The notes: generated from the letters alone by a model not told the origin. 64,000 nucleotides of DNA from Candidatus Saccharimonadota bacterium (GCA_017514025.1 JAFWLB010000003.1:1-64000); one strand, 5' to 3'; positions 1-6,074 are shown, counted from the stretch's first letter. Numbers and translations are program-made.

Positions 1-819
1 ATAGCTGTAGGTAATCCTACTCCTACCTCCTTCTATGATGCCTTCGTAACGGCAGCATCGCAACCAGGTTCTACTATAACCCAACTTAATGGTTACTATA
101 AGATGCAGGATATGACAGCAGATATATGTGGTGCAGTAGATCTATATGATGATAATAGTCATATACAACTAATAGACACTAGAGATAATGAAGTATACTG
201 GATAGGTAAGCTAAAAGACAATAGATGTTGGTTGTTAGATAACTTGAGACTGGGCAGTAATGACTATTCCATAGACTTAACGCCACAAGATACTAATATA
301 GCAGAGGCGTGGACGTTGCCGAGAGGGATCACTAGTAACTTTGGTTCATACACAACAGCTCAGATTAATGCTGCCTATAAAAACAGTGTACCAAGTGATG
401 AAATAAGCCAAAGAGGTAATTGGAGGGCCGGTGTACATTATAATTTTTGCTCTGCTTCTGCTGGAACATATTGCTATGATTCTGAAAGTGGAACCGGTAA
501 TGCCGAACATGACGTTTGCCCAATCCATTGGAGATTGCCAATTGGCGGAAACAATGGAGAATATTTAGCCCTATATTCCATTGACGCATACAATAATTAC
601 ACAGGGTATCGTAATGCGCTTCATCTTCCGACATCAGGAAGTTATTCTACACAACTGTACGACTGGGGATCTTATGGCGTTTTTTGGTCCTCTACTCGGT
701 TCGGAGTTAGTCATAGTCAAATGTATTATCTGGTCGTTAGCCCATCAAGTATTAATGTGATTGCCGGAGCGCAGCGTGGGACTGGGCAGTCAGTTCGTTG
801 CATAGTCAACAATCAATAA
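1..819 (+). CDS. FISUMP-domain surface protein, C-terminal part (5' end outside window)
   Basis: The reading frame is open from the first base, so this is the C-terminal 272 codons of a longer protein. It carries one Fibrobacter succinogenes major paralogous (FISUMP) domain: the IGKLKDNRCWLLDNLRLG block near its start, CPIHWRLP in the middle, FWSSTR, and SVRCIVN just before the stop. These match the family pattern of a W-x-x-x-NL block, a WRLP block and a closing VRC block. The family is found in secreted or surface-attached proteins and has no established biochemical role. There are four cysteines within the domain, which fits an extracellular fold. No C-terminal anchor is visible, so attachment would have to lie upstream. 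A bidirectional hairpin follows the stop. Domain assignment is fairly sure; function is unknown. Confidence 0.75.
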   Translation: MAVGNPTPTSFYDAFVTAASQPGSTITQLNGYYKMQDMTADICGAVDLYDDNSHIQLIDTRDNEVYWIGKLKDNRCWLLDNLRLGSNDYSIDLTPQDTNIAEAWTLPRGITSNFGSYTTAQINAAYKNSVPSDEISQRGNWRAGVHYNFCSASAGTYCYDSESGTGNAEHDVCPIHWRLPIGGNNGEYLALYSIDAYNNYTGYRNALHLPTSGSYSTQLYDWGSYGVFWSSTRFGVSHSQMYYLVVSPSSINVIAGAQRGTGQSVRCIVNNQ

Positions 820-907: not shown

Positions 908-1927
908 TTACACATGTCGATGTTTTTTCCGCGCAGTCTCCACTGCCCAAGTCAGCGCATATTTCAGCGGGTTCAGCACCATATCATGCGCCGGCGTATA
1001 TTTCAATTCAGTGCAGCCAAACGACCGTTTGAACTCTGAAACCCCGTAAAACCGATGCTCCTTGTCATCCACATCCACAATCCCCCACAGATTATACCGC
1101 ACACATCCACGCTTCCGCGCTTCTTCCATCGCTGCCATATGCAATAGTGGTGCCGCCGAATACTTCGTCCCCAGCTGAGACGACACTCCATAATGATAGC
1201 TCGCTTCTGGCCCGTAAAAAATCATAAAATTCTGCGCCAATACTTCCCCGTCTTTTTTCGCTGTGTAAATCAGCACCTCTCCCCCCTCACGAAACGCCTC
1301 AAACTGCTTCCGCAAGAAATCCGAAGAAAACGCTACATATTTTTGCCGCTCAGCATGCAGTTTCTCCAACCGACAAAACTCCTCAATTGCCTCATCTGAA
1401 GCATCGGCGCTAATCTCGATCTCATTTTTAGAAGCCTTGCGCAATTTCCGTCGGAACCCCTGTGATGCTCCCGCCAAAATCTCCTCCTCGGACTTAGTGA
1501 GATCTAGCACCCCGGCATATTCCACGGACAAATACATCGGTGCCGGTCGTAACCCCAATTCTCGCATTAGCGCCAGAGATTTCTCAGACAGTTCTAATTG
1601 TGGCCGCACCCTCACAAAGGCACAGCCAGCCTCTTGTCCACAACGCTTAATGTCGGAAAATATCACCTGTACGACTTTGGTATCTTTCCAGTCTAACAGG
1701 GGTCCTCCCGCGATCGCCATATATGTTCCCCGCCGCGCCGTTTCTACCACACCTGCATACGCCCCTATAATCTTGCCAGCATTATCCAAAGCCCCTCTCC
1801 GCACCACCTTTTTCCCGCGCGACTTATGAAACTCGTAAAAATCCCACGATTGCAAAAAATTCGCCTCTGGTCGTTTGCTTACGAACTTGTCCCATTCGCT
1901 CTTGTCCAAAATATCGACTATTTTCAC
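908..1927 (-). CDS. FemAB-family aminoacyl transferase (copy 1)
   Basis: FemA/FemB/FemX proteins use aminoacyl-tRNA to add amino acids to the peptidoglycan stem peptide or lipid II, building the interpeptide bridge at the inner face of the membrane. The 339-residue length fits a two-lobed GNAT-fold member without the coiled-coil arm. Family blocks visible are NFLQSWDFYEFHKSRG at about residue 24, the IAGGPLLDW block near residue 73, and the C-terminal NLWGIVD...HRFYGVSEFKRSFG block. The start is GTG, overlapping the stop of the upstream paralogue as GTGA, so translation is coupled. It ends the five-gene envelope operon and is a diverged tandem duplicate of the next gene. The two may add different residues in sequence; which amino acid cannot be read from sequence. 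Family call strong, substrate unknown. Confidence 0.85.
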   Translation of the reverse strand: MKIVDILDKSEWDKFVSKRPEANFLQSWDFYEFHKSRGKKVVRRGALDNAGKIIGAYAGVVETARRGTYMAIAGGPLLDWKDTKVVQVIFSDIKRCGQEAGCAFVRVRPQLELSEKSLALMRELGLRPAPMYLSVEYAGVLDLTKSEEEILAGASQGFRRKLRKASKNEIEISADASDEAIEEFCRLEKLHAERQKYVAFSSDFLRKQFEAFREGGEVLIYTAKKDGEVLAQNFMIFYGPEASYHYGVSSQLGTKYSAAPLLHMAAMEEARKRGCVRYNLWGIVDVDDKEHRFYGVSEFKRSFGCTELKYTPAHDMVLNPLKYALTWAVETARKKHRHV

Positions 1928-2916
1928 AAATGCCTCCGTTTCTTACGCGCTTTCTCTACCACCAAATCTTTCAAATACCCCACGCGCGAAATCACCAAAT
2001 CGTGCGCCGGCACATATTCTACTACAGATCCGCCAAACCCAGTTTTAAAGGTAGTCACCCCGGCATAGCGGTGTTCTGGTTGTCCCGCCGGTGCAATCCC
2101 CCAGAGGTTGAACCGCTCGTACCCCTCCGCTTTCAAATCCCGTATCGCCTGCCACAAGAGCGCATACGCCCCCGGCATTTTGCGGTTTAACGGTGTCGAG
2201 GCCGCCTCGTAATAATCTCCCTCGTGTCCATCTTTAATAATCATCCCATAAGCGATTGGCTCCCCCTCGACAGTCCGCGCCGTGTAAATCTGGATATTTT
2301 CACCAAAAGCCTCTCTTTCGGCTAACAAAGTCTTCAGATTAGGCGGCACAAACCCCTGTCTCCGCGCCGTCTCTAGCTGCACCTGATGGAATTTTCTGAA
2401 GATCTCCTCCGAGTTCTCTTTCTGCACGGTAATTCCCATTTTCCCGGCTCGCCGCACTTCGTAGCGGGTCTGTCGCCGCATCCCAGCCAACAACTCTTCT
2501 TCTGACAAGTTCAAATCTATCATCACAGTATGCTCTGCTGCCAGATGCATCGGCGATTTTTTTAATCCTAAATCTGCCAAAATTTGCAAATTCTCTCTAT
2601 TCGCCAAAAGCTGCGGCCGGATTCGCACAAAAACGCACTTTTCGTCTCTTGCCACCTCTGTAATTTTCCCCATCGCTTCTTTTGCTACTCCCCTATCGCT
2701 CCAGTCTATCAACGGCCCACACGGAATCTCCAGATATCGCCCTCTTTTGGCGTTTCGCACTATCATCAAAGCGCGTCCGGAACCCCCGCTTTTACCCCCG
2801 AATTCCTCTGTTATCACCTTTTCGCCCAAAATCTCGTTCATCTTGCCATAGGCGGGCGACTGCAAAAAATTCGCCTCCGGGAATTTTTTCACTATCCCTG
2901 GCCACTTTTCACCCAT
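1924..2916 (-). CDS. FemAB-family aminoacyl transferase (copy 2)
   Basis: A second FemAB-type transferase of 330 residues with the same blocks as its neighbour: NFLQSPAYGKMNEILGEKV near the N terminus, EIPCGPLIDW, and NLWGIAP...HRYAGVTTFKTGFGG at the C terminus. I start it at the ATG at 2916 and not at the in-frame TTG at 2928, because GGAGG lies 5 bases before that ATG. It overlaps the end of the aminotransferase gene by 8 bp and the next FemAB gene by 4 bp. Having two adjacent, clearly diverged copies suggests a bridge of at least two residues or two bridge chemistries, as with FemA and FemB in staphylococci; this is inference. It acts at the cytoplasmic side of the membrane and needs charged tRNA as donor. 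Confidence 0.85.
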   Translation of the reverse strand: MGEKWPGIVKKFPEANFLQSPAYGKMNEILGEKVITEEFGGKSGGSGRALMIVRNAKRGRYLEIPCGPLIDWSDRGVAKEAMGKITEVARDEKCVFVRIRPQLLANRENLQILADLGLKKSPMHLAAEHTVMIDLNLSEEELLAGMRRQTRYEVRRAGKMGITVQKENSEEIFRKFHQVQLETARRQGFVPPNLKTLLAEREAFGENIQIYTARTVEGEPIAYGMIIKDGHEGDYYEAASTPLNRKMPGAYALLWQAIRDLKAEGYERFNLWGIAPAGQPEHRYAGVTTFKTGFGGSVVEYVPAHDLVISRVGYLKDLVVEKARKKRRHL

Positions 2917-4069
2917 TCTCACCTCCAATCAAATGCTTCTCCACAATCTTCCGCGCCCGGACTAGTTTATCTTTTGAATAATAAGTTGGAAAATTGATAA
3001 TATGTTCGCTTATAAACACCGCCTCCGGGCACTTCGCCTCCGGGAAATGCACTTTTTTATAGTACCTCTCTGGTGATACTGGCTTCTCATACCACAATCC
3101 ATCAAAGAAATACCGATTTAAGCGCAACTCTCTCAGCACTTCATCTCTGTTTTCCACCAGATAAAATTCCCTGAGGGCCGGTTCGCCCGATTTCCGTAAA
3201 TTTTTGAACTGGGTCAATGCTCGTCGCGCCTCAAATTTGCTAATTTTACGCGTGAGATCTAACTTATTATCCGCCGATCTCTCTACCCAATGAATCCGAA
3301 TCAAAAACCGCATCAACACTCCCCCTGCTCGTATCACCATTATTCCTCGGCAAGTTGCCCCCAACATCGGATAAAATCTAGCCCGCAAGTGGTCCGACGG
3401 TCGCGGAGATTTTGTAGGCGCTTTAATCTTATGCTTGCAGGGAGCGCGTAGCACCACCGCTCCACCCGATACTGTATCAATTGATTTATCTTTTCCAAAC
3501 GAAAACGCCACCCCCGCCCCCACCGTGCCAGCCTCCCGCCCATCCGAGTACCTGACCCCTGCGCAGTGCGCCAAGTCCTCAATAATTATTAAGTTGTGTT
3601 TCTTCGCAAACTTCTCAATCGCAACAATATCCACCGGATTGCCCAGAGAGTTCTGGATTATTATTCCTTTCGTATTTTTATCTATATTCTTTTCTAAATT
3701 CTTCAAATCAAAATTCAAATCACCCCTATCAATATCCGCCCACACCGGCTTCAGCCCCGCCGCCTTTATCGCCTCATACACCGCATAGCAAGTGAACCCA
3801 TTCACAATTACTGCATCTCCCGGCTCAAAATAGGCTTTCAAGGCCAAACACAACCCAGATCGCCCGTTTTTGCACAAAATCGCCTCGCCTCCGTAGCGTT
3901 TGCCCAGATAATCCGTCAATGCCTCGCAATCTTTTTGCCGCCCCACAGTGAAAGTATGCCCACAAACCTCCTCCAGAGAATATCCTGCCGCCATCCCCAG
4001 ATAGTGCCGCCTCACAAAAGCCATCCCCTTCGCCGTTAGCCAGAAAACGACCTTCTGCGCGGGATTCAC
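2909..4069 (-). CDS. DegT/DnrJ/EryC1-type PLP-dependent aminotransferase
   Basis: A fold-type I PLP enzyme of 386 residues, like the DegT/DnrJ/EryC1/StrS family that transaminates keto-sugars or related ketones. Visible are the CKNGRSGL cofactor-binding turn near residue 70, the SLGNPVDI and EDLAHCAG blocks (the Asp that binds the pyridine nitrogen), and SFGKDKSIDTVSGG, whose lysine should form the Schiff base. The start is a GTG at 4069 with GGAGG 5 bases upstream, overlapping the hydrolase stop as GTGA; an ATG 90 bp further upstream lies inside that gene and has no support. The FemAB and Mur-ligase neighbours suggest a wall-linked amino donor product such as an amino sugar or amino acid. 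The substrate is not predictable. Confidence 0.75.
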   Translation of the reverse strand: MNPAQKVVFWLTAKGMAFVRRHYLGMAAGYSLEEVCGHTFTVGRQKDCEALTDYLGKRYGGEAILCKNGRSGLCLALKAYFEPGDAVIVNGFTCYAVYEAIKAAGLKPVWADIDRGDLNFDLKNLEKNIDKNTKGIIIQNSLGNPVDIVAIEKFAKKHNLIIIEDLAHCAGVRYSDGREAGTVGAGVAFSFGKDKSIDTVSGGAVVLRAPCKHKIKAPTKSPRPSDHLRARFYPMLGATCRGIMVIRAGGVLMRFLIRIHWVERSADNKLDLTRKISKFEARRALTQFKNLRKSGEPALREFYLVENRDEVLRELRLNRYFFDGLWYEKPVSPERYYKKVHFPEAKCPEAVFISEHIINFPTYYSKDKLVRARKIVEKHLIGGENG

Positions 4070-4758
4070 TTTTTCTCCTCCTTTTTTATCTTCTCTATCA
4101 ACCCGCCTAGTGCTCGCGCCAATTCCTCCGGCGCAGAAATATATGGCGCATGCGTCCAATTCGCATAAAACTTCAACTCAGCGTTTGGCATCTTCTCATA
4201 CATCTCTGTAGCCTGCCGCGGCGGCGTAGTCGTATCCTTCTTCCCCCAAAGAATAAACGTCCTCGTCCTAACCTTAGAGAAATCTAATTCTTTGTCGGAT
4301 TCCAGCATATTTGCCAAAGTCTGCTTCATATTCTCTGGTGCTCGCGAATAGTCCGTTGAGCCAGTCAACCGGTGGAAGGCCTTGTCCACCACCGCAATCT
4401 TCTTCAGCGGCTTGCCAATTTTTGCCACTTTCTCTACTACTTTTTTGCGTACAGATGGCTCGTAAACCCCCGCTGAGTCTAGCAAAATCAAATATTTCAG
4501 CTTTTCCGGCCGCGCTGCGCAGAGATTCAGCAAAATCCTACCCCCGTTTGAATGTCCCAGCGCCACCGCCCCGTTCGGAATATTTTTATCTGCCCATTTC
4601 ATGTAATCATAAATCGTAAACACCTTATTAGATTTCTCGGTTAGCCCCGGCACGTGCAACATTTTTACGCTAATCCCCTTTTCGCGTAGCAAATCAATTG
4701 TCTTTTTCCACGGTTCCACCGTGTAAGTCCATCCGTGCACAATGTAAAGATCCGCCAC
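4066..4758 (-). CDS. Alpha/beta-hydrolase
   Basis: A 230-residue single-domain alpha/beta hydrolase. The nucleophile elbow is GHSNGG (serine near residue 69), the acid is probably the Asp in LWGKKDTTTPP, and the histidine is in NWTHAPYI, so the triad is complete. The HGW near the N terminus (IVHGWTY) fits the oxyanion-hole loop. There is no signal peptide or membrane segment, so it should be cytosolic. It starts with GTG, 5 bases after GGAGG. It lies between a MurF-like ligase and an aminotransferase with almost no spacing, which points to esterase, thioesterase or amidase activity in the same pathway. Members of this fold are too varied to name a substrate. Confidence 0.8.
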   Translation of the reverse strand: MADLYIVHGWTYTVEPWKKTIDLLREKGISVKMLHVPGLTEKSNKVFTIYDYMKWADKNIPNGAVALGHSNGGRILLNLCAARPEKLKYLILLDSAGVYEPSVRKKVVEKVAKIGKPLKKIAVVDKAFHRLTGSTDYSRAPENMKQTLANMLESDKELDFSKVRTRTFILWGKKDTTTPPRQATEMYEKMPNAELKFYANWTHAPYISAPEELARALGGLIEKIKKEEKK

Positions 4759-4771
4759 TAAAACCCTCCTC

Positions 4772-6043
4772 TCATGAGTCTAGCCCCCAATTTTTGCGTC
4801 GCGCCACCGCCGCTTTCTCTCGCCGGCATAATTTACTAGCGTCAGCCGGATCCGCCAGCAATTTCTCAATCACCCACTCCAAATATTGGCTCCCCTTGAA
4901 AATCAGCGTTTCCTGCCCAGTCACGTTTTTCCGGATATATTCCAAAGCCTTGCGCGGGTCCAAAGTCGCCACCGCCGACACCCCCAGTTTCTTCAGCTCC
5001 GGTGCGGTATATTTTTTCGTGCGCCGCCCCACTAGCACAACCTTTTCCGGCTTCACTCTAGCAATCAAATCTGCCAGCCGCCGGTGTTCTTCTTCTGCCA
5101 GCGACCCCTGATCCACAATATCCCCAATCACCAACCATTTGCGCTCCGCGTGCATCCGCTTCGCCATATCCAGTGTCGAAGCCATCGAAATCATGTGCGC
5201 ATTGTAACTACTATCTACAATATCAATCCCCTTATACCCCTTAAAATGCGAGCTCCGCCCCGGCGCCGCCTTCATCCCAGAAAAATCCGGGTTGAACTTC
5301 AATTTCAAATATTTCATCAAATCTTGCAGCACAAACAGGTTAAACGCCACATCCTTCGGCTCCGGTCGGTCAAAATGAAAAGTCGTATCCCCGTAGGTAA
5401 AATCCGTTGAATCCGGATAAACCACGTATTTTTTCATATCAGTCTTTTTTATCGGCACCACTTTCGCCACAATCCCCTTTGTCGCCTCCACCATTAATTT
5501 CGCGTCCGCATCTATATATACCCGCTTACTTGTATTCGCTGGCAAATTAGCAAATTCCGCCGTAATCGCCTCTGATAAATCCTTGAATTTCCCCTCCTCT
5601 ACCACTTTTTCAAACTGTACCGCGTGTGATAGCCCAATAGACACCCAGATAGTCACCTCTGGTTTTAGCCATTCAGCCAAAAACTCTGCCTCGTGCGGCC
5701 GTTCTCCGTCGATTTCCACCACATAATACCTCTGAGGGAACCGCTTAAACAACGATTTAAAAGGCGCCGCCACAAACAAGTGCACCCAGCGCCACTTTGA
5801 CCCTCTGACACCCTTTAGCCCCAATAAATCAAACGACACGCCAAAAGCCGAGTTGGCATCATGCGAATAGTGGGCTTCGTCGCCCATTTCATATTCAATC
5901 ATATTCAACATCGTGGTCTTCCCCGCCGAACCAGTCACCGCTATTACCCGTGGCTGCCACCTCTTCAAAACTCGGTTCGCAAAATGCCGAAAATACTTCG
6001 CAGCCACGAAATAAAACCGTTTCTTACAACTAGAAACACTCAT
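4772..6043 (-). CDS. MurF-like Mur ligase family protein lacking the N-terminal UDP-binding domain
   Basis: An ATP-dependent amide ligase related to MurF, which joins D-Ala-D-Ala to the UDP-MurNAc tripeptide. The P-loop VTGSAGKTT lies near residue 37, and the C-terminal domain shows the MurF-like DSSYNAHMISM and IGDIVDQGSLAEEEH blocks. True MurF proteins are about 450 residues with roughly 90 residues of UDP-binding domain before the P-loop; here that domain is missing and a basic, hydrophobic segment replaces it. It may therefore act on a lipid-linked or non-nucleotide substrate, or on another carboxylate. First gene of the five-gene envelope operon. A TATAAT box ends 6 bases before the ATG, so its mRNA is probably leaderless. 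Family sure, reaction uncertain. Confidence 0.75.
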   Translation of the reverse strand: MSVSSCKKRFYFVAAKYFRHFANRVLKRWQPRVIAVTGSAGKTTMLNMIEYEMGDEAHYSHDANSAFGVSFDLLGLKGVRGSKWRWVHLFVAAPFKSLFKRFPQRYYVVEIDGERPHEAEFLAEWLKPEVTIWVSIGLSHAVQFEKVVEEGKFKDLSEAITAEFANLPANTSKRVYIDADAKLMVEATKGIVAKVVPIKKTDMKKYVVYPDSTDFTYGDTTFHFDRPEPKDVAFNLFVLQDLMKYLKLKFNPDFSGMKAAPGRSSHFKGYKGIDIVDSSYNAHMISMASTLDMAKRMHAERKWLVIGDIVDQGSLAEEEHRRLADLIARVKPEKVVLVGRRTKKYTAPELKKLGVSAVATLDPRKALEYIRKNVTGQETLIFKGSQYLEWVIEKLLADPADASKLCRREKAAVARRKNWGLDS

Positions 6044-6049
6044 ATATCT

Positions 6050-6055
6050 ATTATA
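6050..6055 (-). promoter_or_regulatory. -10 box of envelope operon (leaderless type)
   Basis: TATAAT on the minus strand with exactly 6 bases to the start ATG at 6043 and no Shine-Dalgarno sequence. Transcription would start at or next to the ATG. Confidence 0.7.
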
Positions 6056-6074
6056 CCAGATATTTACAAGAATT

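Follow-up and report, generated by a model that had tools for sequence, protein, structure and literature searches.

How is the wall peptide completed in a bacterium whose genome has no D-alanine-D-alanine ligase (Ddl)? This question is raised by a five-gene operon on a 64,000-nucleotide stretch of Candidatus Saccharimonadota bacterium (GCA_017514025.1, JAFWLB010000003.1:1-64000; hereafter the window) that encodes a MurF-like Mur ligase (P0001), an alpha/beta hydrolase, a DegT-family aminotransferase dependent on pyridoxal phosphate (PLP), and two FemAB transferases. Almost all walled bacteria carry a D-Ala-D-Ala terminus, which Ddl makes and MurF attaches, and it is the basis on which vancomycin, cycloserine, and beta-lactams act. 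Nearly every genome with this cassette, which is carried by certain ultra-small parasitic bacteria, lacks Ddl, and the cassette therefore seems to take over the last steps of wall-peptide synthesis. The reading favored here, to which we give a chance close to even, is that it constitutes a self-contained peptidoglycan-precursor unit replacing the Ddl and MurF branch, which produces D-Ala-D-Ala and joins it to the stem peptide. Replacement as such is reasonably supported, while the nature of the product we infer.

Comparative genomic analysis revealed a near-exclusion of Ddl by the cassette. The source genome (679 kb, 97% complete) is that of a Saccharibacterium, the closest named loci being mostly from ruminant gut and including Ca. 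Nanosyncoccus alces, and Ddl was not found in this genome nor in its relatives. Relatives of P0001 split into type A, 40-89% identical to it across their full length, and type B, at about 20-31%, and the class sample of 244 genomes comprised 88 with a type-A MurF and 156 without. Strong Ddl matches (PF07478, E < 1e-15 within the class and E < 1e-12 outside) were identified in 1/88 type-A genomes versus 124/156 of the others. Counted by genus, Ddl was present in 1/11 type-A versus 80/97 other genera (Fisher, 2e-6). A strong type-A MurF was also present in seven genomes of other Patescibacteria families outside the class, each of which carried the cassette with a single FemAB gene; six of them lacked Ddl. 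The same contrast was displayed within genus g8, where type A occurred without a strong Ddl match in 12 genomes; G056 and G059, in contrast, lacked type A and had type-B MurFs, Ddl, and alanine racemase. Another wall gene, coding for the S11 carboxypeptidase, served to control for gene loss in general and was merely thinned in type-A genomes (27/88 versus 90/156 without type A). As S11 is present in the source genome and other type-A genomes it was not decisive as a marker, and a missing D,D-carboxypeptidase was set aside as a sign of absent D-Ala-D-Ala. Alanine racemase did not discriminate between the genome groups either, being rare throughout the class (19/244 genomes, although most have Ddl), such that uptake or another enzyme probably supplies D-Ala.

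The ordinary MurF also displayed decay where it coexists with type A. In the seven genomes with both types (coexisting type-B copies at L112-L117 and L150:7774-9060), the type-B copies keep open frames although the catalytic His was retained in 2/7, Lys432 in 2/7, and the P-loop Thr in 4/7, compared to 15/15 each for comparison MurFs (13 type-B proteins from genomes without type A, the membrane MurF of G056, and E. coli MurF). This loss of catalytic residues suggests that type A took over the MurF step, and the decayed copies may persist as non-enzymatic proteins. The source genome itself holds five proteins found by a Mur_ligase_M search; as the other four are MurE, a 251-amino-acid MurE-like protein, MurD, and MurC, P0001 is its sole MurF candidate, and a second full-length MurF elsewhere was ruled out, none being among the Mur ligases found. 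MurA, MurB, MurI, MraY, FtsW, MurG, FtsI, and penicillin-binding proteins (PBPs) are also encoded. The 251-amino-acid protein (L018:5183-5938, plus strand) has only a MurE-like central domain with an intact P-loop and without the C-terminal ligase domain; its gene overlaps the end of murE (L018:5898-7145, minus strand), and proteins of about this length are encoded in further genomes of the genus.

The five open reading frames of the cassette are all intact and occupy the minus strand of the window from 6043 (gene 1) down to 908 (gene 5), in the order MurF-like ligase, hydrolase, DegT, FemAB, and FemAB:

6044..6058, minus strand: extended -10 promoter element TGGTATAAT, its spacing to the ligase ATG kept in 35/36 homologous loci.
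4772..6043, minus strand: type-A MurF-like Mur ligase P0001, ATG start, 423 amino acids, without a uridine diphosphate (UDP)-binding domain and with a short basic N-terminal helix in its stead.
4066..4758, minus strand: alpha/beta hydrolase, GTG start, 230 amino acids, PF00561, complete Ser70-Asp175-His203 triad.
2909..4069, minus strand: DegT-family PLP aminotransferase, true start GTG 4069, 386 amino acids, PF01041 at 127 bits.
1924..2916, minus strand: Fem1, FemAB aminoacyl-tRNA-dependent transferase 1, likely start ATG 2916, 330 amino acids, PF02388 at 112 bits.
908..1927, minus strand: Fem2, FemAB aminoacyl-tRNA-dependent transferase 2, GTG start, 339 amino acids, PF02388 at 134 bits.

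Co-occurrence of the cluster genes over genomes of the Candidate Phyla Radiation was conserved in about 100 type-A loci (80 named and 20 others) and in the seven genomes outside the class. At every examined locus not cut by a contig end, type A was followed in order by the hydrolase and one or more FemABs, and since the same order recurs down to 40% ligase identity the arrangement goes far beyond what chance would give. The main split is common to the trees of MurF-A, hydrolase, DegT, and FemAB-2, and the catalytic residues of MurF-A, hydrolase, and DegT are invariant or nearly so. In G475, one of the genomes outside the class, DegT and FemAB are fused into a single protein of 735 amino acids. 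Lone A-like MurFs (about 145-250 bits; L279-L291 in G288, G428, G562, and others) without cassette neighbors were also observed in other Patescibacteria families, with Ddl in some of these genomes and none in others.

The compactness of the operon, described in the first-pass annotation as five overlapping or nearly touching genes, was confirmed: 13 nucleotides separate the ligase stop from the hydrolase start, each gene from 2 to 5 shares a few bases with the next (DegT GTG 4069 overlapping the hydrolase stop), and a Shine-Dalgarno sequence precedes each of genes 2-5. The extended -10 element ends 6 nucleotides upstream of the ligase ATG and was identified at this distance in 35/36 homologous loci (within L152-L231) with otherwise dissimilar flanking DNA, from which the transcription start is predicted to coincide with the ATG or to lie directly beside it, the operon messenger RNA being probably leaderless. 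The upstream neighbor of the operon codes for ribosomal protein S10. An open frame near the window edge (103-819, plus strand) had a weak Fib_succ_major match (PF09603, 20 bits, below cut-off).

All five proteins matched their Pfam families above cut-off (Mur_ligase_C, Abhydrolase_1, DegT_DnrJ_EryC1, and FemAB twice). The hydrolase had been annotated as complete, in agreement with a full triad conserved in 99/99 sequences, and the PLP lysine of DegT (Lys225) was conserved in 95/95. The two FemAB proteins (cut-off of 24 bits for PF02388) had been regarded as diverged enzymes; their family assignment holds, and at 36% identity they are duplicates of one FemAB. Only one copy is present in deep members of the module, single-Fem cassettes keeping Fem2. 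The Fem2 profile matches Staphylococcus aureus FemX at 7.6e-32, its best matches being the lipid II FemX (6snr) and FemA, and its invariant Phe299-Lys300 aligns with FemX Phe304-Lys305, the catalytic Phe-Lys pair of FemXWv; F294-K295 is likewise invariant in Fem1. The UDP-contact residues of Weissella FemX were not used as a FemAB substrate test because the alignment is too uncertain there.

The type-A ligase resembles MurF in fold. P0001 matched PF02875 (42 bits) and reached 99.1 bits against TIGR01143, below the cut-off of 288.6, which ordinary MurFs of type B in the class also miss. Its AlphaFold2 model (predicted local distance difference test score, pLDDT, of 85) had T. maritima MurF as best structural match (Z 29.7, with MurF matches at 29.7 and 26.5), followed by MurC, cyanophycin synthetase, and MurT. 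Among MurF, MurT, and cyanophycin synthetase, against which a structural comparison had been proposed, MurF is therefore the closest in fold. Cyanophycin synthetase was rejected since P0001 has no ATP-grasp domain, Mur_ligase_C being its sole Pfam domain. In common with canonical MurF (EC 6.3.2.10), the partner of Ddl, P0001 has the middle and C-terminal fold, the adenosine triphosphate (ATP) site, the catalytic His and Lys, and the Tyr-Asn motif. The P-loop, His140, and Lys383 are conserved in its relatives, the P-loop Lys, His188, and Lys432 (E. coli numbers) are kept in 21/21 type-A proteins, and the Tyr-Asn motif is also kept in type A. Unlike canonical MurF, P0001 lacks the UDP-binding domain (an absence common to MurFs of the class), carries D112, S278, Q312, and R341, resides in a genome without Ddl, and has as obligate neighbors the hydrolase, FemAB, and usually DegT. 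The fixed differences from Ddl-linked MurF are D112 for Gly160, S278 for Asp331, and Q312 for Leu364, and the second Asp of the DD(S/T)YN motif (E. coli D331) is Ser, Cys, or Gly in 21/21 type-A proteins versus Asp in 12/12 Ddl-linked comparison MurFs. Arg341 lies in a loop aligning near the MurE DNPR amino-acid motif. These fixed residues may alter acceptor choice, the acceptor-site role of Q312 and R341 being proposed from the MurE alignment only, since to our knowledge there is no MurF structure with D-Ala-D-Ala bound.

The missing UDP-binding domain had been taken in the first-pass annotation to mean that the ligase does not perform standard MurF chemistry. The absence stands, as P0001 had no PF01225 match in the Pfam search and its alignment to E. 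coli MurF begins at about residue 95. The conclusion drawn from it does not, because ordinary MurFs of the class and MurE lack the domain too and P0001 is the only MurF candidate in its genome. In the genomes looked at, TIGR01143 matches of the usual MurF start near position 60-70, a short N-terminal helix replaces the domain in the alignment, and some of these MurFs are encoded beside Ddl. MurC and MurD seem from their N-terminal sequences to keep it. Examples without the domain are the MurE noted above and the type-B MurF at L150:7774-9060; both MurF types and MurE are thus affected, which raises the question of whether the last two stem-peptide steps occur on a lipid-linked precursor in this class.

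Several observations weigh against replacement of the Ddl and MurF branch. Counting by genus removes shared descent only in part. Ddl-like matches were identified in one type-A genome of the class (G234) and one outside (G475), and 32/156 cassette-free genomes also lack Ddl, such that its loss has other causes. DegT accompanies the cassette except at three examined g8 loci and is hence dispensable for the core. Retention of PBPs and, in some genomes, of S11 suggests that the terminus is still recognized by PBPs, and the likeness of DegT to sugar aminotransferases means that the product could be an amino sugar.

A bolder form of the favored reading is rather unlikely: a horizontally spread cassette in which a terminal dipeptide-like unit is built by tRNA-dependent FemAB and joined by the UDP-domain-less Mur ligase to a lipid-linked tripeptide, giving an end other than Ddl-made D-Ala-D-Ala. 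For the favored reading itself, in the reaction order that we infer, DegT would supply a small amine, and FemAB would join to it an aminoacyl group from aminoacyl-tRNA to form the dipeptide-like unit. MurF-A would then use ATP to ligate this unit to the carboxyl of the stem tripeptide, a final Mur-ligase step without Ddl-made D-Ala-D-Ala. The hydrolase would be an accessory enzyme, perhaps with an editing role. MurF-A and FemAB would probably act at the membrane on the lipid-linked precursor; such substrates are suggested by the absent UDP domain, the basic and fairly amphipathic N-terminal helix, and the proximity of FemAB-2 to lipid II FemX. DhpH reportedly has its FemX-like part joined to a PLP-enzyme domain, comparable to the DegT-FemAB fusion of G475, although the PLP partner is not DegT and DhpH-type enzymes serve antibiotic pathways and not the cell wall. 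The cassette FemAB may be likened to DhpH and other FemX-like natural-product enzymes, which turn small amines into dipeptides by aminoacylation, such as DhpH-C converting L-Ala(P) to L-Leu-L-Ala(P), with VlmA and others also acting on small amines (PMC12945691). For MurT, it has been argued that a UDP domain is not needed and would probably collide with the membrane (PMC6113224). The earlier idea of an undescribed, non-standard stem-peptide route is retained on grounds other than the missing domain, namely the near-exclusion of Ddl, the decay of type-B MurF, the type-A residues, and the DegT-FemAB fusion.

The main rival, of appreciable probability though well under even, is that P0001 is a divergent but ordinary MurF attaching D-Ala-D-Ala (or pentapeptide precursors) that the cell scavenges from its host, Ddl having been lost as unneeded, with the FemABs building an interpeptide bridge at the diamino acid of the stem and DegT and hydrolase being accessory. 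It accommodates the MurF fold, the retained P-loop, His, Lys, and Tyr-Asn motif, the PBPs kept in type-A genomes (a loss of PBPs as an accompanying change was not seen), the rarity of alanine racemase with D-Ala probably scavenged, and the lack of Ddl in some genomes with type B only. The nearness of FemAB-2 to bridge-forming FemX is also in its favor, and the cassette FemABs share their family and best profile matches (FemX 6snr, FemA) with the S. aureus FemXAB bridge enzymes; unlike these, their genes are transcribed together with those of a Mur ligase and a PLP aminotransferase, and they are linked to Ddl absence. It leaves unexplained why the whole cassette moves as a unit and excludes Ddl in separate lineages within and outside the class, why an ordinary MurF beside it loses catalytic residues, and why the type-A residue changes are fixed. 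Moreover, the source genome already holds another FemAB pair for a bridge, two adjacent genes outside the cassette at L017:2295-4353.

An envelope glycopeptide other than peptidoglycan, for which DegT makes an amino sugar that FemAB aminoacylates and the Mur ligase extends while peptidoglycan is made otherwise, is improbable. Nucleotide-sugar aminotransferases match DegT best and the nearest folds of its model are sugar aminotransferases, although a shared fold does not establish a nucleotide-sugar substrate. The genome has no other MurF to complete the stem, the operon contains no sugar dehydratase, oxidase, or glycosyltransferase gene, and presence of the cassette tracks Ddl, a peptidoglycan gene. 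Least probable is a modifier of finished lipid II resembling MurT of the GatD/MurT amidase, which also lacks the UDP domain and is thought to act on a membrane-bound substrate (PMC6113224) and whose S. pyogenes representative aligns with P0001 at a VIA-align Z of 21.0, since none of the five operon genes encodes a GatD-type glutaminase, MurT models were absent from the Pfam and NCBIfam matches of P0001 at E 0.01, its fold is nearer MurF, and no other MurF would build the stem.

Another comparison is offered by the G056/G059 operon (L131:6422-10012), which encodes an alpha/beta hydrolase, a MurF with an N-terminal hydrophobic region, and Ddl, other g8 members having the cassette instead. As in the cassette, a MurF without the UDP domain is preceded by a related hydrolase (25% identity, shared DYxxAxxxMxxTLxN); it differs in having Ddl and no FemAB or DegT, and its MurF reaches 245 bits against TIGR01143.

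All parts of the cassette come from known families. No description of the cassette, or of the combination of its parts, their spread as a unit, and the exclusion of Ddl, was found in the open-access literature searched, nor was anything found there on Saccharibacteria muropeptides. The bolder form of the favored reading would amount to a bypass of the near-universal D-Ala-D-Ala branch, and a cassette standing in for it across distant Patescibacteria would shift ideas on the substrate that PBPs require. Unusual antibiotic sensitivities and muropeptides would then be predicted in these epibionts, and the finding singles out a few proteins suited to expression and assay.

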